64,000 nucleotides of DNA, taken from assembly GCA_947247005.1 (NCBI GenBank), contig OX365946.1, forward strand, positions 53,222,734 to 53,286,733, read 5' to 3'. The notes beneath the pieces are model-generated. The model worked only from the letters and a program-made list of their open reading frames with translations. It made no database searches and was not told where the DNA came from. Numbering within the stretch: position 1 is the first letter of the stretch; each line of letters begins with the position of its first letter. This document shows positions 3,118-55,600 of this stretch, piece after piece. The translations under genes were made by a program, and so were the position numbers. Source of the stretch: Spisula solida (Eukaryota; Mollusca; Bivalvia; Venerida; Mactridae).

Positions 3118-4022
<905 letters not shown>

Positions 4023-9571: not shown

Positions 9572-9604
9572 ATGTCAGACAACAACGAAAACACAGAAAC
9601 AAGT
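9572..9604 (+). CDS. TIR-STING gene, exon 1 (start codon)
   Basis: Eleven residues from ATG (MSDNNENTETS), then the donor GTGAGT, phase 0. It joins the TIR exon at 16285, which also begins in phase 0 with YSVFIAY. Chosen as the start because the TIR exon has no upstream ATG in frame at its acceptor and this leader joins cleanly. It is short, so another first exon is possible. The 6.7 kb intron 1 that follows carries a MULE-like element and the 4.7 kb repeat-built element. Confidence 0.6.
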
Positions 9605-12600
9605 GTGAGTATTATTTCATTAAAGATCCAACACATTTACAGGTATTTTAACTAGTTCACGCGTTGTTTAACTACAGTATTGTTTAACTTTTCTAAAACG
9701 AAAGTAGCTTTTCTAATTGGCATTGGCTAGCCGTCCGGCACCGGACGACTAGACAGCGAAATTAGTCGTCCGTCATCGGACGACTAGCAAACGATACATG
9801 CATTGGCTATAGGTAACTGTCATTCTTTTACTATGCATTAGGCATCCATAATTTCAGTTATTTTCTTGTGATAAGTATCACATATGTTTCTACCTTGTAA
9901 TAAACTACAAATTAAGCAAGACAAGTTATTGCATTTATCTGCATCCATTTTGTGACCGGCCATGTATCTCCGTATAATGTCCGCCATATTGGAAAACAAA
10001 CAAAGTACGCACGTTAATTTGCCGAAGTAACACAAACAAAGATATATGGCAATTAATTACTTTTCATTCGCAGTTTTAATAGCACATATATACAAAACAA
10101 TACAATTACAATTGTATTTTTTTGTAAATTTTAAATACAATATACAATCAGGGAGTTTAGAATAGGACCTACCATGATACGATTCATAAACGGTAACATT
10201 GTTTTCACGCTATTATAACCAGTGACATTCCAAACTGTCAATTACCTAACACAGCAATTCATTTTTTCAGCATGAAGTGAATTCATATACTATCCCCATC
10301 CTCATAATACTGTAATTGAAACTTTCTATGTTCCATTACTACTTCTATTTCTAATGCCGGACGACTAATTTCGCTGTCTAGTCGTACGGCGCCGGACGGC
10401 TAGCCACTGCCTTTCTAATTGAACATTTGAATGTCAAAACTTGTTGTGTATCAATGTAAAAAATTGTGAAGTGAAGACTTTTCATCATAAATGTTTCAGA
10501 TGCTTGGCAGTCGGGTCCAAAAAGCATAGATCTACATATAGTGTAAAATTCTAGTCAGTCCAGGTTGACCACTAGAACTACAGTACATAAAATTATGTTT
10601 TGGCTATTATTAAGATGCTTATTGCCTGATCCTTATGAAAACAACTTCTGTCATTAAATTAACTATACATGTGTACTGTCAGAAACCTGACAATAAAATG
10701 GCACCACTGACAATGAACTGGAACCATTGCCAATAAACTGGTACCACTGACAATAAACTGGCATCATTGACATTTAACTGGCACCACTGACAATAAATTG
10801 GCACCACTGACAATAAACTGGCACAACTGATAATACATTGAGATCATTGATAATAAAGTGACACCACTGACAATAAACTGGCACCACTGACAATAAACTG
10901 GCACCACTGACAATAACCCAGTGAACCTTTCGACGGCTCCCGAACGTGACGGAGACGTTTCCAGCTAGCATGTATTGAAGACGTGATCATCACCCAAAAA
11001 GCGTTACATTTTGAAGACGCCAGTCACGTCTCTGTTCGGTATTCCAAACGTTTTGAAGACTACAAAACGACTTCATATGGGAACGTATTCGAAACGTTCT
11101 GACACGTGTTAGTGACGTGTCCGTCAATCTAAACAAGAACGTCTTGGTTTGGTTTATGGGACGCCTCATGAACATGAAGGAGATGTTTGCAACTAGTAGG
11201 TTATACAGACGTGTGCGTGACCAAAACAGCGTTACATTTTGAAGACTAAACGAACGTCTTAATAAGGTTTTCCAAACGTTTTGAAGACGACAAAATGACT
11301 TTAAATGAACACGTCGTCCAAACGTAATGTCACGTGTTTAAGACGTACCCGTTAATCCAAACAGGAACGTCTCGGTTTGGTACTACCGACGCCTTCTGAA
11401 CGTTAAGGAAACGTTTCCAACTAGCACGTGTTGAAGACGTGATCATCACCCAAAAAGCGTTACATTTTGAAGACGCCAGTCACGTCTCTGCTCGGTATTC
11501 CAAACATTTTGAAGACGACAAAACGACTTTAAATGAACACGTCTTCCAAACGTAATGACACGTTTTTAAGACGTGCCTGTTAATCCTTTCAGAAACGACT
11601 TGGTTTGGTGCTAAGGACGTCTTCTAAACGTTAAGGAGACGTTTCCAACTAGTACGTGTTGAAGACGTGATCAACCCCCAAAAAGCGTTACATTTTGAAG
11701 ACGACACGAACGTCTCTGTTTGGTATTCCAAACGTTTTGAAGACTACAAAACGACTTCAAATGAACACGTCTTCTACGCGTTATGACTTGATTAATGACG
11801 TGTCCGTCAATCTAAACAAGAACGTCTTGGTTTGGTGCTAAGGACGCCTTCTGAACGTTAAGGAGACGTTTCCAACTAGCACGTGTTGAAGACGTGATCA
11901 TCACCCAAAAAGCATTACATTTTGAAGACGCCGGTCACGTCTCTGTTCGGTATTCCAAACGTTTTGAAGACTACAAAACGACTTCAAATGAGAACGTCTT
12001 CTACGCGTTATGACACGTGTTAATGACGTGTCCGTCAATCTACACAAGAACGTCTTGGTTTGGTTCTTGGGACGGCGCCTGAACGTGAAGGAACTTTTAT
12101 TCTCCGAAAATGCATGGTTTACAACAAACAACCAGTAATCAAAAGTGACAGTGCTGAAAAGTTTATTTTTGTCGAAATAAATGAGCTGGTACAATAAAAA
12201 CAGCGTTTGCTGTAGCTAATATATAACGATATTTCATGCAAATATTTAGGTTTCAATTTCGTATGTATCTCACTTAAAAAAGAAATGTAGAACACCTTGT
12301 AAACGTTTCAATTGTACATGACAAATACAAAACAATCAATTGAAATATAAAGGAATAAGTATAGTTTAATAACATTAAAAGTAATTACTGTGTATACATA
12401 TACACTTTTAAGTTAGAATGTCGAAGCTGAATTAATGGATTTAACCAAATCAGTGCTTTTAATAGGCATCATAGATCCAGCCGCGTAATCTAAGTATTTG
12501 AATCTGCACGTACATCGCCAACGCCTGTATTTGTAGAAGCGTTGTAAGAAAAACTCCTTCCGCGCATCAATCTCTTAGGATTCTTTCGGGACTTGTTCTG

Positions 12601-15600
12601 AGATACACGGGTTTGAGGCTCTACTTGAGGCGAGCCTTAATGATTCTCAAAAATGCTAATATAAGAATTGCTTTATAAGGGCAGCTCTGTGAGTGTCGTA
12701 TGTGCATGTCTGACAATTCTTTGAGAGGTACACACGGTTGTGGATGTGGAGAACAATAACCCAATTGATCATCCGATGAAGAAGTATCTCATTTCCTTTC
12801 CTAAACGCATTCTCTAGACTTCGGTGGCACTGTTAGCTGCACCTGTAAGTGAAAAAATTTTATTAATAAAAACGTCTCGGCAAGGTTAAGAACACGTCCT
12901 TGTGACACCACGCTCGAAAATTTTATAGAATACATCAATAAAATCATCACAGCGACGTTGAGAACTTCATCTTTAAAACATGCCATACGAGGGAAATTGT
13001 GACTTGACGTCCAGGAAACGTCTCGTCGACGTTCAGAATACGTCTCAAATCTAATTGGATGTATCTACTAATAAAAACGTTTAGGCGACGTTAAGAACAC
13101 GTCAAGACCTCTGATGCATGGATCTGACAAAAATATTACGTTACGCAAGAAAAACGTCTCGGCGACGTTTAGAATGTGTCTGAACTCTTACTGGAAAGTG
13201 CTAACGACGTTAACAACACGTCCTGCCCTTTGAAATATGTAAGTTGAAGGAAAATATGGTTTGACGCACAGGAAACGTTTCCGCCATGTATAGAATTAGT
13301 CTCAACTTAACCTTGAAATTTCTATTAATAAAAACGTTAAGGCGACGTTAAGAGCACGTGTTGACCTTTGCAACATTTAGAGGAAATATGCGACTTCAAT
13401 CACGAGAAACGTTACGGCGACATTTAGAATACGTCTCAATTCTAACTAGACAATTCTAGTAAATACACGTAAGCGTTAAGAACACGTCTTTACCGTGAAG
13501 TAAATGAAACGTTCCGGCGACGTTTATAATACGTCTCAACTCTAACTTGAAAGCTCTAGTTAATACGTCTAGGAGACGTTAGGAACATGTCTTGACCGTG
13601 AAGTACAAGAAACCTGGCGGTGACGTTTAGTATACGTCTCAACTCTAACTAGACAATTCTAGTAAATACGTCTAGGCGACGTTACGAACAGGTCTTGACC
13701 GTGATTTACAAGAAACGTTTCCATGACCAGGCGCGTAGCTACCTGTACGCAGAATACGCAGCTGCGTAAACATGCTTCTCAAAAAGTGAAAAAATAATTG
13801 ATCGAAAAATGCAATTAAAACTGCCATGATGCCTAAGCCTTAAGGGGGTAAGCCTTACGTATTTTCACCATTTCTTAGAAACACTTTTAAAAAGCTTTAT
13901 ACAAACAAACAGGGTTTTATCAGTAAAAATAATGTTAAAGATGATGCAAAAAACACGACAGAACGCACCAGAGACGTTCTAGCGAACACAATTTTTCCGG
14001 GGAGCATGCCCCCGGACCCCCCTAACATTCTTGCGTACACATTCAAATACCTCTAGCTACGCCCCTGATGACGTTTAGTATACGTCTCAACTCTCACTTG
14101 AAAGTTGTAGTAAATTCGTCTTGGCGACGTAAGGAACAAGTCTTGACCGTGAAGTACAAGAAATGTTTCGGTGACGTTTAGTATACGTCTCAACTCTAAC
14201 TGGAAAAATGTAGTAAATACGTCTAGGCGACGTTAAAACACGTCTTGACCGTGAATAACAAGAAACGTTTCGGCGACGTTCAGAATACGTCTCAACTCTA
14301 TCAGGAAAGTTCTAGTAAATACATCTAGGCGACGTGAGGAGCACGTCTTGACCGTGACGTTCATGAAACCTTTCGGCGACGTTTAGAATCCGTCTCAACT
14401 CTAACTGGAAAAATGTAGTAAATACGTCTAGGCGGCGTTAAAAATACGTCTTGACCGTGAAGTACGAGAAACGTTTCGGCAACGTTTAGAATCCGTCTCA
14501 ACTCTAACTGGAAAGCTCTAGTAAATACGTCTTAGCGTTAAGAATGCGGCTTGACCGTGAAGCTCAGTAAACGCTTCGGCGACGCTTAGAATACATCTCA
14601 ACTCTAACTGAAAAGTTCTAGTAAATGCGTCTAGGCTACGTGAGGAGCACATCTTGACCGTAAAGTACAGGAAAGGTTTCGGTGACGTTTAGAATACGTC
14701 TCAACTCTAACTGAAAAGTTCTAATAAATATGTCTCGGCGACGTTAGGAACACATCTTGACCGTGAAGCATGAGAAACGTTTCGGTGAAGTTTAGAATAC
14801 GTCTCAACACGAACTGGAAAGCTCTAGAAAATACGTCTAGGCGACGTTAGGAACACGTCTTGACCGTGACGTACATGAAACCGTTCGGCGACGTTTAGAA
14901 ACTGTCCTAAATAACTGTTTAAAGCGTTACAATTGAGAATAGACGGCAAAGTATATTGTATCCTAACGTTCCCAGTTGTCAGTTGAAAATTGTTAAATAC
15001 ACGACATTCATAAAGTATACTTACGGTTCAGAAAAACAGACACTTTTCTCGTCAGATGCAAACAGTTCCAACAGGCTTCCGATTCACAATGGCGATGATT
15101 AGAACCCGGATTTGATCGAAGTGACGTGACGGAGGGATATTTTCCGCACGTGTTAAACACGTCTTGGTTTACCATACAGTTTAAGTACATTTTGGTCGGC
15201 AACAAAACATAGCTATTAACATATTTATATAAATCTGTTTGAAAGAGGTGCAATATCAAAATATTTTCATCTCGTCTCCTACAAGTGTTCAAAACGTTGT
15301 TGAACTGAATACGTAATCGTTACGTCTCGGATACGTTCTAAAAACGAAGTACAATGTCAAGTAATATATTCGCTATTTCCGATAAAAAACATGGAAGTGG
15401 CAACTGTTCTTAATATTCCTTACAATAAAAAACAGATAAATGAAGATTTTTAAAAATGTTTTTATAAGTGTTGCAGAAGTCTTTGCTTGGTTTCTGATAC
15501 CATCACGTTTTACCAGTGTTTTAAAGACGTCTGCGCTGTTTCAATACGTCCGAAACACGTGTCAATGACGTCTTGCATACCAACACCGGTAAAAGATGTC

Positions 15601-18600
15601 TCCGTCACCAACACGTATGGTTCACTGGGAAATTGGCACCACTGACAATAAACTGATACAACTGAAAATAAACTGGCATCACTAACAATAAACTGATAAG
15701 ACTGAAATAAGGTGGCAGCACTGACAATAAACTGATATCACTGACAATAAACTGGCACCACTGACAATAAACCAGCACCACTAACAATAAACTGATACCA
15801 CTGACAATAAACTGGCATCACTGACAATAAACTGATACCACTGACAATAAACTGGCACCACTGACAATAAACTGGCATCACTGACAATAACCTGATACCA
15901 CTGACAATAAACTGATACCACTAACAATAAACTGGCTTCATTGACAATAACCTGGTATCCTGTGGTGTGGCAAGCTTTTTCAAATTTGTATTTCTGGTAG
16001 TTTGGCTAATTGGTGGTAGCCTTTAACCCCAACTGTTGATAAGTCTGACAATAAGTTTAAGAAGTACATCAAATTCTGTAGTTTATCTATTAAACTGATC
16101 CTTAACTCTTGTAGATACAGGATGGAAGCCTGTGAAGCCCAATCTTCAGCATCATTTTGATATTGAAGTATGCCTTCAACACTCTATACCCATGTCTTTG
16201 GCCTGAGCTTCATCATTCAAATATGTCTAGTTAGGCCCAGGGTAACAGCAATACTAGTGTATCCTGGCCTTTTTCTTGTTTCAGTATTCAGTGTTTATAG
16301 CATACGACGATCAGCATGATGATGATAGGGAGTGGTACACAAGTATTAGTGAGGTACTGACACAACAGACAGTTGATACCACACTTAAAATAAAATGTAA
16401 AAATATGGACTTTGTTCCTGGTAGACCACTTCTCAGAAGGTATATATTTGTACATGTTCACTTCTCAAGCATTGATATAAATATACTTATAATATGTGTA
16501 GTCAGTACTTTCATGTGCCGTGGAAGACAGCACATATAATATTATTATAATCATGTGAACCCCCATTGCGGATGGGTTATGGAGAGGAAGCATCTAGCTG
16601 GACATTTAATTAAAACAGTTTTCACCTGAACTTTGTCAAACTTGGTGACAGTGTTATTGGGGTCATCGCTAAGCGGCATCCATATGGCCGAGACATCGAT
16701 ATAACATAGGTTTTCCAGTGAACTTCGTAATCCCACCTTTCATGATTCAACCTAAGTTATATGGATGTCTCAGCTATACGGATGCTGCTTAGCAATGACC
16801 AATAGACTCAAGTATTTGAAGTCCCAAGACATGTCACATAAGCCTCTGACAGTTGTAGTCGGAGTTATAGAGTTAAAATTACCGTTACCTATGTAATATG
16901 GATGACTCCGGTTTATGGATGCTGCTTAGCGATTACTGTGTTATTGGGCATTGTATCTAGTATTGGTCATGGTTAATTGACAGCCCTTCCAAGAATTATT
17001 CTCCTTGAATTCACCTGGAATTTTCATTGTCATTTACCAAAATTTATATAAATAAGGGCCAAGACAGGTCACGCTATGTTACTTACTATACTTACTTATG
17101 CCTGTTACCCCTCGTGTGGTATAGGCCGCTCACAAGTCTTCTCAAGGCATCTTGGTCCTGTGCCAGCCTCTCCAAATGTGTCCTGGACTCCTGAGGAGTG
17201 GCCTGTCCTCGTTACGTCTGTGTCTAGATCAGTGCACCAACTGTTTTTGGGTCTCTCTTTCTCTTCCCCTGGGGATTCAATGAAATGGATTGTCTTGTGG
17301 TGTTTGAAGCTGGTTAGTACAATGTTTGGTCTAACTATTTCCAGCGCCTCTGGATTAGCTCTTGATCGATTGGTTGTCATTTCTGATTGTATCAGGTCAT
17401 CGGTTTGTAGGATGCGTCTCAGACTTCATGTGTTGGAAAAGAATTAACCTGGTGATAAAAACTTTGCACTGCCCTCTCTTGAGGCTTCCTCATTCTCCAC
17501 ATATGTCGTGTACATCTTCCGTTTTATAAGGTATGATCCTTTCATACAACAACTAATATCCTAGATCAGTAGTTGAGAGCGTTATCAACGCAACCATCGT
17601 GTCACCCATATTCCATACTAATACGTCTTAATATTTCAGCATATCAACGGCTGTAGAAGAATGTAATATAACCTTAGTGATTGTCACAGAGAATGCGTTA
17701 TCGGGAGAACGGTTCGGAAAATACTCGTTCATGCAGGGTTTTGATAAGTCTCAGCAAGAGAAACTACTTCATGTGGTCCTGGTTCTTGTTGATATTGATG
17801 TAATGGTGGTACAAAAAGTATGGCATAGTGACATTAATGATGACATGGTCGTCAAGGTTACCAGTGGAGATGACTGGAAACATCAATTTACAGCAAATAT
17901 GATAGAAAGGATTAAAAGTATGTACATGGAATTGAATAAAGGGGACTTGGGTAAATAAGGGGTTTGTCTGCTAAGGGACAGGGGAAAAAAGGGGTTTGCA
18001 GACAATGGACAAATTTTGAAGGAGTGGATTTTCACATGTCAAGAAAAACCAACACATTGGCAATCGATATGTGAAAACAGCTTGCCGGGAAATTCTTATG
18101 CCAGAAAAGAGCCCTTTAAATCAAATTAATGGCAACCCTTATATTTTCGTTACGATTCTTGAACCATGCATGCTTTTTTAGCTCACCTGCCACAAAGTGG
18201 CAAGGTGAGCTTTTGTGATTGCTTTTTGTCCGTTGCCCGTCATCCGTCCGTTAGACATTTCACCGTTAACACTCTAGCACTTTCAATTTTGCTTTGGTCA
18301 AGTTCGAAGTTGTATCATGTGGGGTCAAAAACTAGGTCAAAAGGTCAAATAATAGGTAAACCTTGTTAACACTCATGGCCGTAACTAGGGGAGGTGCGTC
18401 GGGTGCGAACGCACCCCCTTTTTTCACCAAAGGAGTCCTTTAAAAAAATTATTGGTGAAATTTATAAACTTTGCAATTTTTTAAGCTCGCTTCGCTCGCA
18501 ATATTAGAATCTACTTTGTTATCCAATCAAGTATAGAATGAGTCTGTGAAATGCTGTTTACATAAACGAATGCATTTTTTCTAGCTCGCTTCGCTCGCAC

Positions 18601-27600: not shown

Positions 27601-28021
27601 TCTATACATACAATAAACTTTCATCAACCAATGAAAATGTGTATCAGGGTTCACAGCAGTTTTGTAAAGGTCAAATATCAAAATATTCTAGTATTTTAAC
27701 CAGGGTGTGAATTGTACTGGTTAAGTGGAAATCAAAGCGCTGTAGGGAGCGTAGACATTTTCCTGAGGGTCGTGGGTTCAAACCCCACTGGAACCATAAT
27801 TTTTATTTTTTTATTTTTATTTTTTTAAGTGTTTAGGTATTGTTTTGTCTTTATAGCATGTATTTGTACATTTTCCTGATGGTCGTGGGTTCAACCCCCA
27901 CTGGAACCATAATTTTTATTTTTTTATTTTTATTTTTTTTGAGTGTTTAGGTATTGTTTTGTCTTTATAACAGGTATTTGTACATTTTCCTGATGGTCGT
28001 GGGTTCAATACCCACTGGAAC

Positions 28022-28052
<31 letters not shown>

Positions 28053-31000
28053 AATGTTTAGGTATTGTTTTGTCTTTATAACATGTATTTGTACATTTTC
28101 CTGATGGTCGTTGGTTCAACCCCCACTGGAACCATAATTTTTTTTTTTTTTTAAATGTTTAGGTATTGTTTTGTCTTTATAACATGTATTTGTACATTTT
28201 CCTGATGGTCGTGGGTTCAACCCCCACTGGAACCATAATTTTTATTTTTATTTTTTTTAGTGTTTAGGTATTGTTTTGTCTTTAAAGCATGTCTTTGTAC
28301 ATTTTCCTGATGGTCGTGGGTTCAACCCCCACTGGAACCATAATTTTTATTTTTTAGATTTTATTTTTTTAAGTGTTTAGGTATTGTTTTGTCTTTATAG
28401 CATGTATTTGTACAGTTATATGGAGGAAATATTTTGTTTAAATTATAGGTCAGATCATAGAAAAACCCTGTGTAGTCACCAGAGGTTACAATTTCGACTT
28501 AATCTTTATGAAATTTGGTCCTAATAATCATCTCAACACAATCTAGGTTAAGTTTGATATTAATTAAGTCATCTGGGGTCAAACGCTAGGTCACATGGTC
28601 AAATCATACACAAACTTGCAATAGAGGCTGAATTTCCTTAAATTTTATTCAGAAAATGTGTAGGATCACCATAGGGGTGTGCATGCACTAGTACGACAGG
28701 TGAGCGACCTAGGGCCTTTTGGGCCCTCTTGTTTAAAAATTAGTTTTACACGACATCTATAACTGAAAGTTTAGTATGTGAGTATTATATAACTTCTACA
28801 ATGACATTGGATATGTTATTGACGAAGACATCTGACTCAAACATTTCTCTTACAATGTTATTACATTAGAATGTCATTTCATACAATGCCTGTAAATATT
28901 GTTATTTTGGGAAATGAAAATTTCATACACTTTAGTTTTGTCACTTTATGAGGAAAACCAGCTACATGTATTTGTTTCTCAGAAGCTTTGTTCAAATTAT
29001 TGAAAGCTCACAGGCTTAAAATTGTACATTACAACCTCTAGAGCGGCCCTTTGTAGAGGAACAATATCTCTATAAAAACACCTTCAACATTTCCCTAAAC
29101 TGATATTTACTATCAATTTAACCTCTGTTGAGCAACCTCAAAACAGCCAATGTTTGTAGCTCCCAAAGGGTGTTCAACTACAGAGGTTAAAGTACTCACT
29201 GTACGTAATTTTTCCTCTTATAAATTATCCATCATGTATGCTTACTTTAATTTACATGTAGTGTATAGTCAAACGTCTCTGTAAACGTGATGTCCTGGAC
29301 ATAGGGTGCCAGAGATGGGCATTGATCGATGATCCTTTGATGTCTGTCAGTTGTAAGGTGGAATTGCATCAACCGGGTATAGGTTGGTCACTGACAAATC
29401 TATTTTTCTGTTACTAAGCCACACCTTCATTTTGTCAAACAATGCTCCATTGAACGGTCAATGTGTGTCTTTCAGATTAGCCAAAAAAAACAGGAGGGCT
29501 GAAAGTAATCAGATTGGATTGGTGACCCAGATATAAATGAGGTGACAAACATATATTTGTTCATATGCAGTTATAATGAAGCTAATTGAGTTAAAATTCT
29601 TATTAAAGGAGACTTTGATTTTTCAGATGAACTACCTGGGAACGAGATTGCTCAACTGTTACTCGATGCTGTGAAGAGGGCTTGTTTTGATGCTGTGAAG
29701 ACGGTGTGTTCTGCGACATCGGAGACGGATAGTGTTCAGATTGATAAAGTTAGTTACATTTTTGTATGATAGTTATAGGAGGGGCTAATTTGTTTAAATT
29801 GTGTCATTCGTATCTCTTTAGGGAATAGAAAAGATTTTAATACTGTCTGTCTGTATTTTACTCCATGTTAACATGTAGGACTGTATATAATGGTCGACTC
29901 TTGGCTGTCAAATTTATCTCCCGTAAATATTTGCTTCTTGAGTTTACTCACAAAGTTTTGAGTTTTGTTGTTACAGTGATTATATGCCAATCCATATTTA
30001 TTTAGGAAATAGATTTTAGTCTGGCATGATGTACCAGTGAATTAGAGAATAATGGGTTAGTGACAAATAGGAAGGGAGGAATTTATCAGGTGAGCAGCAG
30101 CGGAGCAGGATAAACTTTTACACGATCCACGTCACTAACCTATTATTCTTGTTATCCAGTCACTTAATCGTCACATTCCTTCAGTTATGTCATAATAAAC
30201 AACGACGTCGAACATCTTGATTACCCTCATGTAGAAACAGAAAATAATAATAATTGATCAACCACCAGTTCATTTAGGAAAGGAAAACATCACCCTCCGG
30301 TACTGAATTTCAAGCGGCAACTCTCATGTAAGAAGTAGTCCGTCGGATTACATGGTCAGTTGACGGTTTTTCACAAGTCACATGACCAGGTGACCTAATA
30401 AAACAAAGCTTATTCAGCACCATTTTGCCGGAAGTGACTGGATAAATCGCTGTTCATATACATAGTAATTAATCTCAAAGGCGTTACAGTTTTGTGAGTA
30501 AAATCAAGACCTACAAATTTATTTGTTAGATAATTTAAATCGCTACTAGTTGTGACACACTTAAACCTCATGCCAGCAATGGTCTTGAGATCAGGTCATT
30601 ATCAGATCTTGAAGTTTAGTGTTGAAGTTATTCATATATAAATGCTGTTGCACACAGGCAAAGTAGTGTACTTGCTTCCTGCCTGTTATTAATAATTATC
30701 CTCATGGTCATGGATTCCATCAGAAATATGGGAGTAATTAATAGTTATACATGTATTAACTATTGATATCAGTTTTAGAACTTGATTCAGGATCAACCTA
30801 TAATCAATGAGTACAGAACTATATCTATATAAACTACTAACACTGTATCTTATAAACTAAAGAAAATACAGTTGTATTTGAAAATCAATGTACCCTAATT
30901 GTTGACTCTGTTTTTTTATTTGAACAGGATGTGCAAAACCTTTCCGTACAGGCAGACGCAGATGATCAGAAAACAGAAGACTACGCTAATACTGTGTACA

Positions 31001-34000
31001 TAGTTCATGTAGACGATAATACGGAGGATAATCAAACAGCTAAAGAGCTTGAAAGCTTTCTCAAGACTTGTGATATCAGTGTTTTATCATTTTCAGACAG
31101 TCCGTCAAAAATAGTTTTAGGAAATATCGCGGACGCAGCTCAACGTGCCAAGTGGTTTATCTTTATACTATCAAAAGCTGCGCTGACTGAGGTGCACAAA
31201 CAGAAGTTTAGGATGGTACTACATGAAAGTGTGATACAAGATGAAGTCAGGTTGATTCCTCTTCTTAACTATGATGTCCAAGAAAATGATCTTCCTGGTG
31301 ACTTGAAGGCCGTCCTTTTTCTGAAGAAATCTAGTCCAGAATACACGGAAGTTATTGCTAGCATCATAAAAAGTAAGTTGAATCCTGATATTTATTATTG
31401 ATATCAAACAAAAGCCTGTCTTGATTAGTGCAATGATTCATGATACTGATATTAAGTTGAAGCCGGTCTTTGTTAAGCATATAGGATTGAGCCACTCTGT
31501 ATCACCCATATGAGCTGGGTTTAAAACTTGGTTATACATGTTATGCTCCTTCATTAGCTATGATTATTTTCTCCACATTAGCACCAACACTGTCTAAGTT
31601 GAACGCAAAAAAGCCAAAAAAGTATCAGGTTATAAATGCGGATAAACTATATTTTCAGGTCGAAGTATCAAAATGGAAGCAAAGGTATCGGTGAAAGGTG
31701 TACATATTGGAATGGCATGGGCATATGCTATTAACTATCTGGAGCTTCTCAAAGGTTAGTTTCCTGCTTTGTTACATAGTTTACCCTTCTGACTACAGTG
31801 AACAATATACATGTACTATACACTTGTGATAGCCTAAGATGCAATGTATTTGGGGACTATATTGGAGTCATAGTTGAGGTTGGTTGGTCGGTTGGTTTGT
31901 GTTTTGTCTGCGCTATTTCTCTGTATCCCTTTGTCGCTTCTTACTGAGATCATCAGTACCAACACTAACCTTTTATCCAATGTTGACACATTTTACTTAC
32001 TGTCAAGAACCAAGTTTGGATCCTCAATTATTGTCCAATTGCCAGAGATTGGTATTCACAATCTAACTGGTCTTTTCAGGATACTGTATGTACATTGATT
32101 ATTTTCCTGTAACATACACTGAACAACGCTTATAAACAGTCACTTTAGAAAATGTGATATCTATGCAATTAATTAATACATCTAAACATCAATTAGCAAA
32201 TATTTTGTTTAACATCAAGAGCCTAGTACTTGTATACCCATTCCTGTGGAAGACAATACATGTATGACGCACCAATTGTCCTGAGGCAGTTATGGATGTT
32301 ATAAAGTAATTACCAAGAATTCGCATTTATAAAATTTTGGTTTTATAAGTTTTGTTACGCCACCAACTTTGATGAGGGGGTATATTGCCTTGTATATGTC
32401 GGTCGATCTGTATGTTTGTCGGTTGGAAAACCAAATGGTTTCCGTTCAATAACTTGAAGAAGGCTTTGCCATAGGATTTTCAAACTTTACATCTATGGAG
32501 TAATATGATGCCTTTCAGTGAACATCTCAGAGAGCGGGACAAAAAAACTATCAGAGATGTACAAAGATGCCCAAATTCACCACAAGCTATTTCTGCTGAT
32601 CCCTAAGTCATGTAAAACCAAGCAGCTAGGGGAGTTAGACAAGGACGATGGTGGACAGTCTCTGCATCCGACCAGATTTAAACAGTTACCGAAGGAAGAC
32701 AACATAGAAAAGTCAATTATTTTGAATGGAATACAAAGGGATTATCCATTACTACCTTATATGGTCATTGGAGACAATCAACAGGTTTGTACTATGTAGA
32801 AGCATTTAAAGTTATTATTTTAAAGTGACTGGTTCGTAGCCAGGCAGTAGTCTGGAAGCCCGGGCTTTAACTTTTAACTTATCATTTATCAAGTCTTCTC
32901 ATAAGCAGAATAATGCAAAATATCTGATAAAGTGATGACAAAAGCGATCATTTCTAGCTCATCTGATTTTTGGGGAAAAAAGAGTTATTGTCATCACTTG
33001 ATCGGCGTTGGTGTTCCTTGGTTAAGCCATTTTAGGTCCCAATGAGCCTTTTTGCCTCGTCGACATATGATTTCCGATGAACATTATTGTGCTTCAAGAG
33101 GCATTGGGAACAGGTTCCACATGGTCTAGGGGAAGCTTCGAGGAGGTCATGAGACAATTTGTGAGTCTGTAGGGATAACTCACAATGTATGACTTTTGCG
33201 CCGATCAAATATTCTCTGAATGTACTGCCGATGAAAATCAGAAGGTTCCCCTATGTCTGAGGGAAGCTCTTCAACATCCTGAGTCTTGAGATATTTGGGG
33301 CATCGGGGAATTTCAATGCAGGTATTGAATTTTGACGGTTGTACTCGCAATTAAATGTCAGGAATATCCTGGGAAGGCATCCCCAAAGCTCGGGAATGTC
33401 TCAGGCTACTGGCATGCGAGGTATTACTGGACAGCAGGTATTACCGGACAAACGGTCGTAGACGCTTATTTTCTGGAATTATGTATTGAAATTTGTACCA
33501 AATCATTCAGAAGCTTGTTTGGAATAAATCTAGAAGAAAAATATATTCAAGATTAACTACACATTGTCTTATCATCGAAAATGTCGTCCGCCGCTGTGTG
33601 TTTACGTTAGCGGCGCTGGGGGAAATCTCCATCTTGTGCGCATGCGCAAAATAACATGAGCTGAGCACGTGAGTCATTGATTTTATAGGGTTAAATTAAA
33701 CCGCAATTGATTATGTAAAGAGCCCATGGTCGAGTGGTTAACGTCTTTGATTGTGAAGCGAGAGCACCCGCGATCGAACCCTCGCGGCACCAAGATTTTT
33801 ATCTTTTTTAGCTCACCTGTCACAAAGTGACAGAGTGAGCTTTTGTGATCACTCTTCGTCCGTCGTCCGTCGTCCGTCCGTCCGTCCGTCGTCCGTCCGT
33901 CCGTCCGTCCGTCAACAATTGGCTTGTGTAGACACTAGAGGTCACAATTTTAGCCTAATCCTTATGAAACTTGGTCACAATGATCATCTCAACAAAATCT

Positions 34001-37000
34001 AGGCCAAGTTCGATATTAGGTCATCTGGGGTCAAAAACTAGGTCACTAGGTCAAATTATAGAAAACCTTGTGTAGTCACTAGAGGTCACAATTTTGACTT
34101 AATATTTATGAAACTTGGTCACAATGATCATCCTAACAAAATCTAGGTCAAGTTCGATATTGGGTCATCCGGGGTCAAAAACTAGGTCACAAGGTCAAAT
34201 CATAGAAAAACTTTGTGTAGTCACTAGAGGTCAAAATTTTGAATTAATCTTTATGAAACTTGGTCACAATGATCATCCTAACAAAATCTAGGTCAAGTTC
34301 GATATTGGGTCATCCGGGGTCAAAAACTAGGTCACAAGGTCAAATCATAGAAAAACTTTGTGTAGTCACTTGAGGTCAAAATTTTGAATTAATCTTAATG
34401 AAACTTGGTCACAATGATCATCTCAACAAAATCTAGGTCAAGTTTGATATTGGGTCATCCGGGGTCAAAAACTAGGTCACAAGGTCAAATAATAGAAAAA
34501 CCTTGTGTAGGCACTAGAGGTCACAATTTTGGCCTAATCTTTATAAAACTTAATCACAATGATCATCTCAACAAAATTTAGGTCAAGTTTGATATTGGGT
34601 CATCCGGGGTCAAAAACTAGGTCACAAGGTCAAATCATAGAAAAACCTTGTGTAGTCACTAGAGGTCACAGTTTTAGCATAATCTTTATGAAACTTGGTC
34701 ACAATGATCAACACAATAAAATGTAGGTCAAGTTCGATATTGGGTCATCTGGGGTCAAAAACTAGGTCACAAGGTCAAATCATAGAAAAACCTTGCGTAG
34801 TCACTAGAGGTCACAGTTTTGACCTGATCGTTACGAAACTTGTTTACAATGATCATAACAACAAAATCTAGGTCAAGTGCGATATTGGGTCATCTTGGGT
34901 CAAAAACTAGGTCACATTGTCAAATCATAGAAAAACCTTGCATAGTCACTAGAGGTCACAATTTTGGTCTAATCTTTATGAAACTCGGTCACAATGATCA
35001 TCTCAACAAAATCTAGATCAAGTTTGACATTGGGTGATCCGGGGTAAAAAACTAGGTCACAAGGTCAAATAATAGAAAAACCTTGTGTAGTCACTAGAGG
35101 TCACAGTTTTGGCTTGATCTTTAAGAAACTTAGTCACAATGATCATCTCAACAAAATCTAGGTCAAATTCGATATTGGGTCATCTGGGGTAAAAAAGTAG
35201 GTCATTAGGTCAATCATATAAAAACCTTGTGTAGTCACTAGAGGTCACAATATTGGCCTAATCTGTATAAAACTTGGTCACAATGACCATCTCAACAAAA
35301 TCTAGGTCAAGTTCGACAGGTGAGCGACCTAGGGCCCTTTGGGCCCTCTTGTTTATTTTAAATTTAATTTCGTCCTTTTATACCAGCTCTAATTTCAGCA
35401 GGATATTGTTAATTACGAAATTTGTCAACGGATAGCAGTTTAGTAATCCTTTTTAATATCTTATCCATAAATCTGAAATACTTGGGGTTGCTTTTTTATC
35501 GTTGAAATCGACTTTTGATCGGTAAATTATGTACGGTATATTACGGCATTTGACCTATCATACAGCGCCACCTGGCAGGAAAACATAACGCGTTACGGGT
35601 TGTATTTACGAAAATCGTGACATATTTTTGCATAAATAGGAAGTACCAACCCTGTTCTAATCATTTACCATAATAATATTCCAAATTTTAAGTTGAAAAT
35701 GACTGAAAACGACTGTCCGGTAATACCTGCTGTACGTCGTTGAAAAAAGCGTAAAAAGTGCCCCTGTTTGGGCCCCTTAATTTGGATGTTCTGGTGACGT
35801 CATTTTTCGGGAATTCTATTTTTAGGAAGGCCTTGAACCCAGGTATGTGTCAACACAAAAAATCTGACTACAAATCGATTTTTAACTTCACAGGAAGCTT
35901 TTTATGGCATTTCTGTCCGGTAATACCTCGCATGCCAGTAGAGGCATCCCCGTTGTACCCAGAGCCTCGAAGAAGCATAAAAACATATTCCGCGAGGCAT
36001 CATAGAGGCTAAAATATCAGGAACCTTCGGGGTGTTTTATTGCTTGGCAAACATTCGACAATTTTTTTTAGATGACACATCCGAGGTATTGGGATTTAAT
36101 TCCGGAATATTCACTGATATTAATCAGGGATGATTTGGGGGTCACCAGGAGAACTCCTGAGGTTCCACTGTCTTGGTGATGTACTCCCTAGGACCATTAG
36201 GAGCTTCAGGGGGTGTTGGTTACAGGTTCTGCAAAAACATTGGGAGTATCGGGAGTCATTGTTGGCCATCGGAAGAAACTGTTTGTAATTATATATTGCC
36301 GATGAGGAATTCCTCAGTGGGACCTAGGTTTTAAGTTTATGTCCTTTTTTCTACTGAACTATCAGAGCTACTGCTTTGAAACTCTCAACAATTGTTCACC
36401 ATCAATACCTGACTCTGTAAAGCAAGACCACATTGTGATTCTGCTAAATAGTATTGCCCCTTTATGGACTTAGAAAATATCTTGGTTGAATTTTATTTTT
36501 AAGTTAATTTTTTTCCATAACTTGTAACACTTGTAAACCATCATTACCTTATTATGTAAAACAAGACACATAACTCTTACTTTATCGAAAGGGTAATGAC
36601 AAATATCAAATGAGCATCTCTACCTGCAAGGGCACCTTGGGTCTTTCATGATATTAGGATAATTGTTACATATATAATTTCGTGTAAAGGCATAGTATAA
36701 TGCGGAAATGTTGAAAATACAAGTTTAATAAATTTCAACGCGTGTTGTTGTTCATATTTATTTTAATTTGTAACTTTTTAGAAACATATCGTGTTTGCTG
36801 AGTATGTGAATCCAGTAAAATGTTTACAAGAAATGATGGAGAAGGATATGAGGGCACTATCTGGTATGACTACGGACCTGTTTGACGAGGAAGTAGACAA
36901 GTTCCAAGCATTGCTGAAAGATATCATAACATGGCAAGGACTGGATAAACAGTTTGCTGTTGTCTTCTATGATGGTGAGTGGATGTAAAATCTAAGAAAA

Positions 37001-39540
37001 TTATAAAACAAATATTGTACGTTTTTTTAGCTCACCTGTCAAAAAGTGACAGAGTGAGCTTTTGTGATCACTCTATGTCCGTCGTCCGTCCGTCGTCCGT
37101 CCACAATTTGTGTAGACACTATGGGTCACACTTTTGGCCTAATCTTTATGAAACTTGGTCACAACGATCATGTCAACAAAATCTAGGCCAAGTTCAATAT
37201 TGGGTCATCTGGGGTAAAAAACTAGGTCACTAGGTCAAATGATAGAAAAACCTTGTGTAGTCAGTAGAGGTCATAATTTCGACCTAGTCCTTATGAAACT
37301 TGGTCACAATGATCATCTCAACAAAATCTAGGTCAAGTTCGATATTGGGTCAACTGGGGTCAAAAACTAGGTCACAAGGTCAAATCATAGAAACCTTGTG
37401 TAGTCACTAGAGGTCACTATTTTGGTCTAACTTTTGTGAAACTTGGTTAAAATGATCATCTCAACAAAATCTGGGTCAAGTTTGTTATTGGGTCATCCGG
37501 GGTCAAAAACAAGGTCACAAGGTCAAATCATAGAAAAACCTTGTGTAGTCGCTAGAGGTCACAATTTTGGCCTAATCTTTATGAAACTAGATCAAATTGA
37601 TCATCACAACAAAATCTAGATCAAGTTCAATATTGTGTCATCAGGGGTCAAAAACTAGGTCACAAGGTCAAATCATAGAAAAACATTGTGTAGTCACTAG
37701 AGGTCACAATTTTAACCTAATCAAACTTGGTCACAATGATCATGTCAACAAAATCTAGGTCAAGTTCGATATTGGGTCATCCGGGGTCAAAAACTAGGTC
37801 ACAAGTTCAAACCAAAGAAAAGCCTTGTGTAGTCACTAGACGTCACAATTTTGGCATAATCTTTATGAAACTTGGTCACAATGATCATGTCAACAAAATC
37901 TAGATCAAGTTCGATATTGGGTTATCCGGGGTCAGAAACTAGGTCACAAGGTCAAATCATAGAAAAACCTTGTGTAGTCTCTAAAGGTCACAATTTTGGT
38001 CCAATCTTTATGAAACTTGGTCAAAATGATCATGTTGACAAAATCTAAGTCAAGTTTTATATTGGGTCATCCAGGGTCAAAAACTAGGTCACAAGGTCAA
38101 ATCATTAAAAAACCTTGTGTAAACTGTAGAGGTCACAATTTTGGTCTTATCTTTATGAGTCTTAGTCAAAATGATCATCTCAACAAAATCTAGGTCAAGT
38201 TTGATATTGGGTCATCCTTGGTCAAAAACTAGGTCACAAGGTCAAATCATAGACAAAACTTGCCTTAAACTTCAATATGCAATTTGGTCTACAGTATGTG
38301 ATGTAAATTGCAAAGTCGCTTTATAAGGCAATATGAAAACCTTGTACATGCAATAGAAGCTACCATCAAGGGGTCTACATGAACTACTAGGACAGGTGAG
38401 CGACCTATGGCCCTTTGGGCCCTCTTGTTTGGTTTAATGCCATTTCTCGACAATGTTTTAGTTATCTACTGCAACTGATTCACCAGGTGACTGGTTTTCC
38501 TGGACTGTATTCTATTCCTAACTAGTACTAACTTAAAGTTTTGAGTTTTATTAAGAACCATGTGATTATGTAAACAAAGACCTCTCTTTATTATTTGCTT
38601 TCAATGGATTATGGAGATTTTTCAGTGAAAATAACACTGTTTTAGAAGCTGGTTCTAGTTTTTTGCAGAAAAAGAAACGTAACATCAATGTCGTCAGGCT
38701 TTAAAATATGCGTTACATCATGATGACGTCATAATTCTCATGTCGTGTCATTCTAATTTCGACGTAATTTTTCCATTTAAGCCAATTACGGCACATATTT
38801 AAGTTGAATTGAGGCATATAATAAACAGAACATTTGTTGATTTTTGGTGTAAGATCAATTTTATTTCACTCGTGATCACAGAAAATTAAATTTTCACTCT
38901 TGGCTATGCCACTCATGAAAATATTGATTTTCTGTGGTCACTCGGTGAAATAAAATTCGATCTTACACCAAAATCAACAAAGACCTCTCTATATAATATT
39001 ACTGTTTCCATGGTTGCAGGTGTTTACAGACAAGTTGCACTGTTGAGATATTCTAATTTTCATTCTGGGCTGGTATTTATGAAGCATCTTAATGGAAAAC
39101 TTAAATTTATATTTATTTAAGTGTAATATTTGCGACAATGTGCTTCTTTTCCTAAAATTGCATGCAGAATAACGTATGTTTTCTTAATGATTATAGTAGC
39201 TTGCTACATAATGCTTCAAAACTATGTAAACAATTGATAATCTTGATTTTATTATTTAGCTGATTTTATGATTTTAAGAAAATTCGTAGGTTTCTAATAA
39301 GATGCTTATTAAGTCTTCGGCCAAAGACCTAAGGTCTTTGCTTCGCCTTAAAGTAAATTTTACAATTTTAAGAAAAAAATTTGTTTACTTTTATGATTCT
39401 TTATAAATATCGGCCCTGTTGATTTGCATTGTTAAAATTGATACCAGTATTATATTTATTGTGTACTTCTGATTTTCCATCTAGATGAAGGCCAAGGTGT
39501 GATCAATGTTCTACTGGACCTGCTACAAGCCTCATCATAG
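9572..39540 (+). CDS. TIR-STING-TIR-STING fusion protein (14 coding exons, 726 aa)
   Basis: Predicted cytosolic innate immune receptor/adaptor with tandem TIR and STING domains. Exons: 9572-9604, 16285-16439, 17640-17917, 21215-21310, 22446-22579, 23676-23771, 25745-25864, 27052-27142, 29627-29748, 30928-31372, 31659-31754, 32519-32784, 36782-36974, 39485-39540 (TAG). All introns are GT-AG and the frame stays open across 2181 nt. Domains: TIR1 about residues 12-155, STING1 about 160-370, TIR2 about 390-523, STING2 about 528-722. STING domains bind cyclic dinucleotides as dimers; TIR domains signal by oligomerising or act as NADases. No signal peptide or transmembrane helix is visible, unlike vertebrate STING, and the protein ends right after the second STING core, so no TBK1/IRF3 tail. 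The start MSDNNENTETS precedes GTGAGT. Main alternative: two adjacent TIR-STING genes (frame could stop just after 29748). Confidence 0.85.
9719..10411. mobile_element. 693-bp MULE-like MITE in intron 1
   Basis: Long inverted termini of about 50-60 bp start GGCATTGGCTAGCCGTCCGG on the left and match the reverse complement of the right end (10356-10411). The 9-bp direct repeat TTTCTAATT flanks both ends (9710-9718 and 10412-10420). Long inverted repeats with a 9-bp duplication point to the Mutator (MULE) superfamily. The termini themselves contain a nested palindrome (CCGGACGACTAG and relatives). An interior minus-strand frame of 65 codons is present but shows no transposase motif. Confidence 0.88.
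10678..10916. repeat. About 19-20 bp minisatellite, left block
   Basis: Around twelve copies of a unit reading roughly CACTGACAATAAACTGGCAC. The same array continues at 15631-15958 in the same orientation. The array was probably continuous before the element between the two blocks inserted. Confidence 0.92.
10930..12095. repeat. About 232-bp tandem array
   Basis: Five diverged monomers sharing AAAAAGCGTTACATTTTGAAGAC, TTCCAAACGTTTTGAAGAC and ACAAGAACGTCTTGGTTTGG-type blocks, cut here into pieces under 20 bases where possible: GCGTTACATTTTGAAGACG and AACGTCTTGGTTTGGT. Monomers start near 10940, 11172, 11404, 11636 and 11865. Open frames on the minus strand are repeat artefacts. Confidence 0.85.
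12860..14905. repeat. About 105-bp tandem array
   Basis: Roughly seventeen diverged monomers built from GAAACGTTTCGGCGACGTTT, AATACGTCTCAACTCTAACT, CTAGTAAATACGTCTAGGCG and CACGTCTTGACCGTGAAGTA. The array is rich in AACGTT and GACGT. It is interrupted at 13728-14067 by a small transposon. Confidence 0.87.
13728..14067. mobile_element. 340-bp MITE inside the 105-bp array
   Basis: Ends CAGGCGCGTAGCTACCTG and, inverted, GCTACGCCCCTG, flanked by the 5-bp direct repeat ATGAC (13723-13727 and 14068-14072). The surrounding array monomer shows the uninterrupted target. The ends resemble the common CAGGGGCGTAGC class of animal MITEs. The duplication length is unusual for hAT (8 bp), so the superfamily is open. 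Confidence 0.82.
15631..15958. repeat. About 19-20 bp minisatellite, right block
   Basis: Continuation of the array at 10678-10916, about sixteen copies of CACTGACAATAAACTGGCAC-type units with ACTGATAC variants. Confidence 0.92.
16285..17917 (+). CDS. TIR-STING gene, exons 2-3: first TIR domain
   Basis: Exon 2 (16285-16439) begins after TTTCTTGTTTCAG and exon 3 (17640-17917) ends at GTATGT. Together they encode residues 12-155. TIR box 1 is YSVFIAYDD (residues 12-20). The BB-loop region reads MDFVPGRPLLRSI (52-64) and keeps the D-x-x-PG pattern. The following strand is ITLVIVTENAL (73-83), then HVVLVLVDI. Aligned by eye with TLR and SARM1 TIRs, the position of the NADase glutamate (W-x-x-x-E) is S92, so catalysis is doubtful and an assembly role is more likely. 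That alignment is my inference. Confidence 0.9.
16661..16800. repeat. Fold-back repeat, 50-bp arms, in intron 2
   Basis: Arms 16661-16710 (GGTCATCGCTAAGCGGCATC at its start) and 16751-16800 are imperfect reverse complements over about 50 bp with a 40-bp loop. A third partial copy of the same arm follows at about 16890-16935. The transcript could fold here into a long hairpin. Confidence 0.85.
17100..17460 (-). pseudogene. Degenerate retroelement C-terminal fragment
   Basis: The minus-strand frame contains NPEALEIVRPNIVLTSFKHH followed by KTIHFIE and EKERPKNSW. This resembles the RPD-x-V...ELTVPWEE segment found near the C terminus of some animal retroelement polyproteins. The match is short and by memory of the motif only, and the frame is degraded. 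It lies in intron 2 antisense to the TIR-STING gene. Confidence 0.3.
18374..18830. mobile_element. 457-bp MITE nested in element A
   Basis: Perfect 16-bp inverted termini CATGGCCGTAACTAGG and CCTAGTTACGGCCATG, flanked by 5-bp direct repeats ACACT (18369-18373 and 18831-18835). The interrupted monomer reads GTTAACACT...CTGGAGG, as in intact copies elsewhere. The interior repeats CTAGCTCGCTTCGCTCGCA twice or more. Confidence 0.9.
19143..20030. mobile_element. Second mosaic element nested in element A
   Basis: Begins with the hairpin CCCCCTCACTTATCTATAAGTGGGGGG, followed by GTCCGTCCGTCC, then about four monomers of 165-175 bp. Each monomer contains GAACTCCT, ACTGGATGGAATTTCTTCAA and AGTTATGGCCCTTTGTTAC. 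It ends with GGGGGCACCCGTGTCAATGG ... TTCTAGTTT. Open frames through it are repeat artefacts. Confidence 0.8.
20291..20690. mobile_element. Third mosaic-element family member, intron 3
   Basis: Starts ATGCCCCCCATCTTTGATGAGGGGG-type hairpin (CCCCCCATC/GATGAGGGGG), then GTCGGTCGGTCTGTCGG. Two monomers follow, each with CAAACTTTACATGGAGGTTG and TTTGAGGTCAG. The same family appears at 32355 and at the start of the array near 40915. Confidence 0.75.
20947..21189. mobile_element. CCTGGGTACTG MITE, copy 1
   Basis: Ends CCCTGGGTA..CTGTTTTAT and ATAAAACAGTACCCTGG, about 243 bp. Related copies lie at 23364-23625 and 57977-58223. The right end stops about 25 bp upstream of coding exon 4 (21215), so the element occupies most of that acceptor's branch-point region. 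Confidence 0.8.
21215..29748 (+). CDS. TIR-STING gene, exons 4-9: first STING domain and linker
   Basis: Exons 21215-21310, 22446-22579, 23676-23771, 25745-25864, 27052-27142 and 29627-29748 encode residues 156-375. STING hallmarks: GQVWSHFFGY (172-181, equivalent to human W161-Y167, with S162, G166 and Y167 kept) and QRGSFKDRPY (242-251, with R232, R238 and Y240 equivalents at R243, R249 and Y251). The segment aligned to human LEYATP is IAHIPN (269-274), so E260 and T263 equivalents are A270 and P273. Residues about 350-375 (ending SVQIDK) form a linker beyond the STING core into the second TIR. Confidence 0.9.
21640..21870. mobile_element. Mosaic-element 5' fragment, intron 4
   Basis: Hairpin CCCCTTGCACAACATGTTGTAAGGGG begins it, then one monomer with GCAACCCCAAAATGTAGATG and ATATATGACCCTTTCC. 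Related in layout to 19143-20030 but without a microsatellite array. Confidence 0.55.
22105..22250. repeat. Short inverted-repeat element, intron 4
   Basis: TATAGGAGAGATCA near 22109 pairs with TGATCTCTCCTATA near 22233, and inner segments (GGTGAATGGCAGG / TTGCCGGTGGGC region) pair less well. Probably a small MITE. Confidence 0.6.
23364..23625. mobile_element. CCTGGGTACTG MITE, copy 2, intron 5
   Basis: Starts CCTGGGTACTGTTTTATCAA and ends in a decayed GATATAACAGTGCCC. It shares the internal GTAGGAGTTCATTA...TGA block with copy 1. It ends about 50 bp before coding exon 6. Confidence 0.75.
24525..25600. mobile_element. Bivalve mosaic element B, intron 6
   Basis: Begins AAGCTCACCTGAGCAGG and ends CATCAGGTGAGCGC. 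About seven monomers of about 145 bp sit inside, each with GGTCAAAAACTAGGTCAC and AAACTTGGTCACAATG. Diverged from the copies at 33808 and 37025, so older. Confidence 0.75.
26565..26695. repeat. Imperfect fold-back, intron 7
   Basis: GGGCGGAGGTCTAGATAATC pairs imperfectly with the reverse complement of GATTATCAAGAGCCCCGCCG. Possible small MITE; no target duplication identified. Confidence 0.4.
27293..28737. mobile_element. Bivalve mosaic element C, intron 8
   Basis: Starts TTTTTAGCTCACCTGTCACA, hairpin to GTGACAGAGTGAGCT, then (GTCC)n, partial monomers, and ends GACAGGTGAGCGACCTAGGG ... GGGCCCTCTTGTTT. A tandem tRNA-like array (27720-28425) is inserted within it. Confidence 0.8.
27720..28425 (+). 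repeat. Tandem tRNA 3'-half array, six B boxes
   Basis: The first copy has a fuller tRNA-like head: an A-box-like TGGTTAAGTGG near 27719, then GGTCGTGGGTTCAAACCCC and ACTGGAACCA. Five further copies repeat only the 3' half (CTGATGGTCGTGGGTTCAAC, ACTGGAACCA) plus a T-rich linker and GTGTTTAGGTATTGTTTTG, with a period of about 105-115 bp. Each carries a B box (GGTTCAANNCC); one has GTTGGTTCAACC. It looks like a SINE or tRNA pseudogene whose tail expanded in tandem. Confidence 0.85.
30034..30440. repeat. Two overlapping inverted repeats, intron 9
   Basis: AGAATAATGGGTTAGTGAC pairs (one mismatch) with GTCACTAACCTATTATTCT near 30136-30154. TTATCCAGTCACTT (about 30158) pairs exactly with AAGTGACTGGATAA (about 30433). 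Likely MITE remnants. Confidence 0.6.
30928..31372 (+). CDS. TIR-STING gene, exon 10: second TIR domain
   Basis: A single 445-nt exon (phase 0 in, phase 1 out) encodes residues 376-523. In TIR1 the equivalent stretch is split over two exons totalling 433 nt with the same outer phases. Box 1 is NTVYIVHVDD (396-405). The strand KWFIFILSKAAL and RLIPLL follow. The BB loop lacks the PG motif (SDSPSKIVLGNI), and the position of the catalytic glutamate seems to be lysine (VHKQKF). TIR2 is therefore more divergent than TIR1. The exon has no in-frame ATG at its 5' end, which supports reading it as internal to a fused gene. Confidence 0.85.
31659..39540 (+). CDS. TIR-STING gene, exons 11-14: second STING domain and C terminus
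   Basis: Exons 31659-31754, 32519-32784, 36782-36974 and 39485-39540 encode residues 524-726. Hallmarks: HIGMAWAYAINY (539-550; W161, Y163 and Y167 equivalents kept, S162 to A, G166 to N), KLFLLIPKSC strand, GIQRDY (626-631; R238 and Y240 equivalents R629 and Y631, but I at the R232 position), and FAEYVNP (649-655; E260 equivalent E651 kept, T263 to N654). FAVVFYD near the end matches the last strand before helix DEGQGVINVLLDLL. The stop follows six residues later, so there is no signalling tail. Confidence 0.92.
32355..32512. mobile_element. Mosaic-element fragment abutting exon 12 acceptor
   Basis: CTTTGATGAGGGGGTATATTGCC, shortened GATGAGGGGGTATATTGC, followed by GTCGGTCGATCTGT and CAAACTTTACAT match the family at 20291-20690. 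The similarity runs to within about 20-30 bp of coding exon 12 (32519), so the element may contribute the polypyrimidine tract or acceptor (CCTTTCAG). Confidence 0.6.
33721..33793 (+). pseudogene. tRNA-like sequence, no acceptor stem
   Basis: A box TGGTCGAGTGGTTAA and a good T arm (CCGCGATCGAACCCTCGCGG) are visible, ending CACCA. An anticodon-like GTG lies in TTGATTGTGAA. The 5' and 3' acceptor arms do not pair, so this is a tRNA-derived SINE head or pseudogene, not a working tRNA. It directly precedes mosaic element D. Confidence 0.55.
33808..35353. mobile_element. Bivalve mosaic element D, best-preserved copy
   Basis: Layout in order: hairpin AGCTCACCTGTCAC/GTGACAGAGTGAGCT, (GTCC)n/GTC microsatellite (33859-33912), about nine monomers of about 144 bp, and the terminal GACAGGTGAGCGACC plus hairpin AGGGCCCTTTGGGCCCT then CTTGTTT. 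The ends AGCTCACCTGTC/GACAGGTGAGC are inverted. Each monomer contains AGGTCACAAGGTCA, a DR2 arrangement of AGGTCA. No protein is encoded. Confidence 0.9.
37025..38430. mobile_element. Bivalve mosaic element E, intron 13
   Basis: Same layout as the copy at 33808: hairpin start, GTCC microsatellite (37078-37100), about eight 144-bp monomers, and GACAGGTGAGCGACC ... GGGCCCTCTTGTTT at the end. It begins only about 50 bp after the exon 13 donor at 36975. Confidence 0.9.
38833..38981. repeat. Fold-back element, about 55-bp arms
   Basis: TTTGTTGATTTTTGGTGTAA (38833) through TCACAGAAAAT pairs with ATTTTCTGTGGTCACTCGG through ACACCAAAATCAACAAA (ends 38981), with about a 35-bp loop. A strong hairpin in intron 13. 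Confidence 0.88.
39065..39415. mobile_element. GGGCTGGTATTTAT MITE, intron 13
   Basis: Starts GGGCTGGTATTTATGAAGCA and ends TTTATAAATATCGGCCC, inverted termini. It ends about 70 bp before the last coding exon. A related fragment occurs at about 684-850. Confidence 0.65.
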
Positions 39541-53419: not shown

Positions 53420-53472
53420 TGCATAGGAATATGGTTTCAACTCGTCTTAAATTTGAAACCATATGCCTATGT
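53420..53472. repeat. Small fold-back insertion in copy B
   Basis: CATAGGAATATGGTTTCAA pairs with TTGAAACCATATGCCTATG (one mismatch) around a short loop. The matching position in copy A (about 49462) lacks it. Confidence 0.75.
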
Positions 53473-55597: not shown

Positions 55598-55600
55598 CAG

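Follow-up and report, generated by a model that had tools for sequence, protein, structure and literature searches.

A single predicted gene in a 64,000-nucleotide stretch of the Spisula solida genome (the window) encodes two TIR-STING units on one chain, in the order TIR1-STING1-TIR2-STING2, and this arrangement differs from the single-unit TIR-STING of animals. STING is known as a receptor that has to pair two copies to hold one ligand. We assign a probability of about 0.5 to the reading that STING1 and STING2 of the predicted chain pair in cis to form one asymmetric cyclic-dinucleotide pocket, the closure of which would gather the TIRs and start immune signalling. Judged from its sequence, the protein is best read as a putatively soluble single-chain STING heterodimer that would cluster TIRs.

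The gene was rebuilt from the raw sequence as 14 exons on the plus strand, spanning positions 9572 to 39540 and joined into a single open frame. The predicted coding sequence comprises 2181 nt and 726 amino acids, and its sole stop is the terminal one. All 13 introns have GT...AG boundaries; the shortest is 286 bases, and a 6.7-kb intron lies behind exon 1. AATAAA signals occur at 39648 and 39838, past exon 14. The exons, with the tblastn matches of a Mactra antiquata protein (P0001), were as follows:

9572 to 9604, plus strand: exon 1 (tentative), ATG, residues 1-11, phase 0 out, donor gtgagt.
16285 to 16439, plus strand: exon 2, first part of TIR1, residues 12-63; AG/GT splice sites, Mactra match at 1.7e-9.
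17640 to 17917, plus strand: exon 3, remainder of TIR1, residues 63-156; Ser at the catalytic-type Glu position, Mactra match at 6.5e-16.
21215 to 21310, plus strand: exon 4, first helix of STING1, residues 156-188; 96 nt, phase 1 to 1, the same as exon 11; Mactra match.
22446 to 22579, plus strand: exon 5, STING1, residues 188-232; splice sites and Mactra match.
23676 to 23771, plus strand: exon 6, STING1 lid with R243, R249, and Y251; splice sites, Mactra match, and alignment to solved STINGs.
25745 to 25864, plus strand: exon 7, STING1, residues 265-304; N274 at the T263-like position; Mactra match.
27052 to 27142, plus strand: exon 8, STING1, residues 305-335; splice sites and Mactra match.
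29627 to 29748, plus strand: exon 9, last STING1 helix and linker to TIR2, residues 335-375; donor gttagt, Mactra match at only 0.005.
30928 to 31372, plus strand: exon 10, linker and TIR2 in one exon, residues 376-524; no catalytic-type Glu, Mactra match at 1.3e-37.
31659 to 31754, plus strand: exon 11, first helix of STING2, residues 524-556; 96 nt, phase 1 to 1, the same as exon 4; Mactra match.
32519 to 32784, plus strand: exon 12, STING2, residues 556-644, with the lid R629-D-Y631; Mactra match.
36782 to 36974, plus strand: exon 13, STING2, residues 645-709, with E651 and N654; Mactra match.
39485 to 39540, plus strand: exon 14, last part of STING2, closed by the stop codon TAG; aligns with the end of P0001.

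In tblastn, P0001 matched 12 of the 14 exons (2 to 13), in order and on the correct strand, which exceeds what chance would give, and the two proteins aligned end to end. No tblastn match from any relative's protein fell on exon 1 (11 residues) or exon 14 (18 residues). Exon 1 is the least certain exon and was tentatively placed by its ATG, its donor site, and a weak similarity to the P0001 N-terminus. The sole other match of P0001 at E up to 1 was one of 25.0 bits on the minus strand (8770-8714); this and a match at 1887-1780 were the two stray 25-bit matches when four queries were run by tblastn (E up to 1), a search that detected no further copies in the window. Neither a composition profile nor tRNA scanning of the window yielded anything useful.

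Pfam placed TIR_2 in two stretches and STING_LBD in two stretches of the chain. When the halves were scored alone, STING1 and STING2 reached 64.1 and 50.7 bits with STING_LBD (cut-off, 27), and TIR1 and TIR2 reached 33.3 and 29.0 bits with TIR_2 (cut-off, 28), TIR2 being only 1 bit over its cut-off. The first-pass annotation had proposed 14 exons in one frame with the order TIR, STING, TIR, STING, and the rebuilt coding sequence and the Pfam matches bore this out; the profile search of the 726 residues that it had suggested gave two TIR_2 and two STING_LBD stretches, not one STING match.

The same four-domain order, which the first-pass annotation had proposed seeking in other bivalves, was present in at least three other full-length proteins, two of which belong to named clam species, in protein searches that scored 7,990 and 7,997 candidates sharing the most words. 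The Mactra antiquata protein ACF0H5_007528 (P0001; 708 aa) was 59% identical over 99% of the window query by BLASTP. The Ruditapes philippinarum protein LOC132749004 (P0002; 710 aa) and a third protein, P0003 (713 aa), were found with a profile of the window protein, P0001, and part of the oyster TIR-STING. In each relative, Pfam matched TIR_2 twice and STING_LBD twice, and STING2 gave the strongest STING_LBD match in the Ruditapes protein and in P0003. P0001 was 39% identical to the Ruditapes protein and 34% identical to P0003 (BLASTP). A search with the first half alone returned no single TIR-STING relative. The database names of the relatives are hypothetical, uncharacterized, or none. The first-pass annotation knew of no described protein with this architecture; the order itself is present in these three database proteins. 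In the literature searched, outside subscription surveys, no chain carrying two STING domains was described, and the two passages that mention two such domains concern separate proteins or a dimer; Gerdol's surveys of bivalve TIR proteins may contain an earlier mention.

The coding part of P0003 takes up 2142 nt, stop included, of a 2,420-base contig from the source "lgn", which we take to denote assembled sequencing reads. Since the 278 bases left over are fewer than those of the shortest window intron (286), the contig reads like a transcript, and a retrocopy seems less likely. Identities of the window domains to P0001, P0002, and P0003 were 71, 50, and 41% for STING1; 64, 39, and 30% for STING2; 46, 28, and 29% for TIR1; and 54, 31, and 25% for TIR2. 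By this comparison the STING domains are slowest to change and the TIRs fastest, and STING1 is the most conserved domain.

Pocket positions were mapped by alignment to solved STINGs, and invariance was counted in the four proteins (the window protein and P0001 to P0003). Invariant in all four were R243, R249, Y251, S176, G180, Y181, and N274 in STING1 and R629, Y631, A545, N549, Y550, E651, and N654 in STING2. We take the human STING counterparts to be R232 for R243, R238 for R249 and R629, Y240 for Y251 and Y631, Y167 for Y181 and Y550, T263 for N274 and N654, S162 for S176 and A545, G166 for G180 and N549, and E260 for E651. The lid R-x-Y and the stacking Tyr were thus kept in both halves of all four proteins (R249/Y251/Y181 and R629/Y631/Y550), and both halves carried Asn at the T263 position. 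The halves also differed alike in all four: STING1 had Ser and Gly at the S162 and G166 positions, whereas STING2 had Ala and Asn. At the E260 position, STING2 had Glu in four of four, and STING1 had His or Gln (two of each). Arg occupied the R232 position in every STING1 and was aligned there in one STING2 of the four, that of Mactra P0001, by gap placement. A kept ligand motif with consistent differences between the halves is what would be expected of a one-chain heterodimer, and also of two separate homodimers. The differences are consistent with the intramolecular STING dimer and heteromeric ligand site that the first-pass annotation had suggested.

The TIRs were compared at the SARM1 catalytic Glu position, which was located by alignment with the oyster, TLR6, and SARM1 TIRs. 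In TIR2 this position held Lys in the window protein and Gln, Arg, and Gln in the relatives (Glu in none of four), and TIR2 is predicted to be inert in all four. In TIR1 it held Glu in the Mactra, Ruditapes, and P0003 proteins, so that a loss of NADase activity is predicted not to be general; the window protein has Ser. TLR6 also has Glu there, and Glu alone is therefore no proof of NADase activity. TIR1 carried a TLR-like, BB-loop-like D/H-F-x-x-G stretch in all four proteins.

The TIR_2 match of TIR1 spans residues 14-116 and begins close to the N-terminus. The 19-residue hydropathy maximum was 1.98 in the window protein and 1.47, 1.14, and 1.16 in the relatives, in every case within TIR1, and the window peak is taken as a core strand of that domain. 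The TBK1-type motif PLPLR was absent from all four proteins, and the vertebrate-type tail PLPLR(T/S)D was not found. Between 16 and 22 residues follow the last Asp-Asp in the four proteins; xLxIS matches occurred at residue 293 in the window protein and at 291 and 489 in the Mactra protein, none of them at the C-terminus.

In the mechanism that we propose, STING1 and STING2 would pair inside one molecule, given enough reach by a connecting stretch of some 30-45 residues from STING1 to TIR2, and would close in cis on one ligand, presumably one of the 2',3'-linked molecules that animal cGLRs produce. The single-chain dimers would then stack side by side, and the resulting filament, resembling that of bacterial TIR-STING, would be the signalling form. 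Because TIR2 lacks a catalytic-type Glu in four of four proteins and TIR1 of the window protein has Ser, output in Spisula solida would come from TIR-TIR assembly rather than from NAD+ cleavage. Domain packing was unreadable in AlphaFold2 models of Mactra P0001, both from the single sequence (mean pLDDT, 36.6; pTM, 0.22) and from the three-sequence alignment of P0001 to P0003 (mean pLDDT, 44.8; pTM, 0.30); a fold search with the latter model placed the oyster structure 6wt7 at the top, with a TM score of only 0.16. We lean slightly against, while still entertaining, the fuller claim that this would be the first natural single-chain STING heterodimer, with diverged, fused halves forming a single pocket of permanent asymmetry that suits an asymmetric cyclic dinucleotide, linked to a pair of TIRs that are not alike (in most species the first is enzyme-like, whereas the second is always inert), and kept as a unit in clams.

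A rival reading is pairing in trans, in which two chains would join STING1 to STING1 and STING2 to STING2, so that each tandem chain would serve as a ready-made building block of a polymer, with two symmetric pockets and possibly two different ligands. The R-x-Y motif and the stacking Tyr are present in each half, each half is nearer to single STINGs than to its partner, and in known STINGs the ligand sits at the interface of a homodimer, as described in PMC9402430. No observation speaks directly against this reading. Asymmetric pairing would also explain why the half-specific pocket residues are fixed in all four proteins, and the long linkers would favour cis pairing on concentration grounds; we consider the trans arrangement unlikely, if a serious competitor. 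It is decidedly unlikely, in our view, that STING1 alone senses the ligand and that TIR2-STING2 is a regulatory half keeping the chain inactive or setting its specificity. The greater conservation of STING1, the absence of the TIR2 Glu, and the distribution of the R232-position Arg, which STING2 shares only in the gapped P0001 alignment, all fit such a role, but R629, Y631, Y550, and E651 are kept in every STING2, STING2 still scores 50.7 bits with STING_LBD, and it provides the best STING_LBD stretch of two relatives. As a point against cis pairing in general, the halves could have separate tasks, since each resembles the single STINGs of other animals more than its partner.

A role as a decoy, in which the chain would bind cyclic dinucleotides away from other STINGs and so dampen them while its own TIRs had decayed too far for signalling, would account for the TIRs being the fastest-changing parts, for the missing Glu of TIR2, and for the Ser of the window TIR1. 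In animal adaptor TIRs, however, signalling proceeds in the absence of NADase activity, and TIR1 keeps its BB-loop-like stretch in four of four proteins and its Glu in three of four, which makes this reading improbable.

The last reading, that two adjacent TIR-STING genes have been wrongly joined, was rejected as very improbable: exon 9 can be read through as VSYIFV to a stop just after 29766, and AATAAA signals follow it at 30194 and 30397, but the three relatives of 708-713 aa are collinear, one of them on the 2,420-base contig, and the second unit lacks a start codon: the frame that is open ahead of exon 10 contains no Met, and the first one within that exon is residue 471, inside TIR2. The same two observations, collinear relatives and no Met in frame before exon 10, support continuation past 29748, and the locus is therefore best read as a predicted single gene and not as two neighbours. 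An additional short TIR1-STING1 isoform ending past exon 9 is possible.

The gene structure also records how the doubled unit may have arisen. When eight STING domains were aligned, introns of STING1 and STING2 fell at columns 33 and 32 (phase 1), 123 and 123 (phase 0), and 204 and 204 (phase 1); STING2 has three internal introns, STING1 has those three positions and two more, and both units have a phase-1 intron at the TIR-STING border. By our own rough estimate, the chance of three such coincidences is approximately 1.2e-5. In profile comparisons with PDB entries, the best match of STING1 was 6wt6 (oyster TIR-STING), and that of STING2 was 5cfp (74.7 bits), with 6wt6 fourth (71.0 bits). TIR1 matched 6wt6 first and then TLRs, TIR2 matched 6wt6 first and then SARM1, and by this order both TIRs are nearer to animal TIR-STING or TLR domains than to bacterial TIRs, so that a bacterial origin is unlikely. 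The matching introns and phases, together with the best match of both TIRs to the oyster TIR-STING TIR, favour doubling of the whole TIR-STING unit, and we infer descent from an oyster-type TIR-STING gene by this route, followed by a division of labour between the halves. STING1 and STING2 were 15-20% identical (window and Ruditapes rows compared), below the 22-29% identity of each half to single STINGs of other animals, and the four STING1 and four STING2 domains formed separate clades with support of 100 each; the doubling would therefore be old. The oyster TIR-STING was unplaced in this tree (supports, 42 and 48). The shared introns may predate the doubling, having been inherited from an old STING gene, and fusion of two TIR-STING genes is a possible alternative origin.

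Several other features were observed in the window. By eye, intron 1 contains a large repeat-rich insert (10920-15610) with many ACGTTT/ACGTC-like units and CACTGACAATAAACTGGCAC repeats on its flanks, and inspection of the sequence and the list of open reading frames revealed long tandem arrays of short units at 40900-43000 and 49800-55600. A 295-codon open frame at 48103-48990 on the plus strand looked like a piece of a non-LTR retrotransposon and had no Pfam match at E up to 0.1. On the minus strand, a 100-codon open frame (2824-3123) with a hydrophobic N-terminal part and Lys-Arg near its end resembled a small secreted peptide precursor, with no convincing Pfam match. The start of another gene was seen on the plus strand at 61009-61312 and 61822-62033; these exons, in a join guessed from splice signals, matched the death effector domain weakly (24.4 bits; E, 3.4e-5), below the Pfam cut-off of 35.9.

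A natural chain carrying both halves would allow each side of the pocket to be mutated alone, would reveal how receptors read a second messenger that is asymmetric, and would spare activation the step in which dimers assemble. Single-chain sensors of cyclic dinucleotides could be modelled on it as a natural template, and it would bear on why cGLR-rich bivalves elaborated their STINGs; very many cGLR genes are reported for bivalves in PMC9980059.

Among known systems, the oyster (Crassostrea gigas) TIR-STING (6wt6 and 6wt7, the latter titled as the complex with 2',3'-cGAMP) likewise places the TIR before STING on one chain and has the R-x-Y lid, but it carries one TIR and one STING on 415 residues, as expected of animal TIR-STING; the window protein has the TIR N-terminal to the STING ligand-binding domain twice, with two of each domain on 726. 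The oyster protein is described as a single TIR-STING, and such fusions as rare in eukaryotes, in PMC10732462, PMC8218723, and PMC5869526. Bacterial TIR-STING, a CBASS effector, is also a TIR-STING fusion, in which STING pairing and filament formation control the TIRs: according to PMC9402430, ligand closes the STING dimer, the dimers stack into filaments, and the TIRs meet. It differs in being a single unit and an NADase with the catalytic Glu E84, and PMC10732462 regards the animal TIR-STING as having arisen by a separate fusion. Molluscan Toll-2, which carries its TIR domains in tandem, is also a mollusc immune receptor with a doubled TIR, but, as portrayed in PMC4929906, it is a Toll receptor without STING, of which the window protein has two. 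Also close are the Mactra, Ruditapes, and P0003 proteins, which share the domain order and a similar length with the window protein and differ from it in the Glu of TIR1, where the window protein has Ser.
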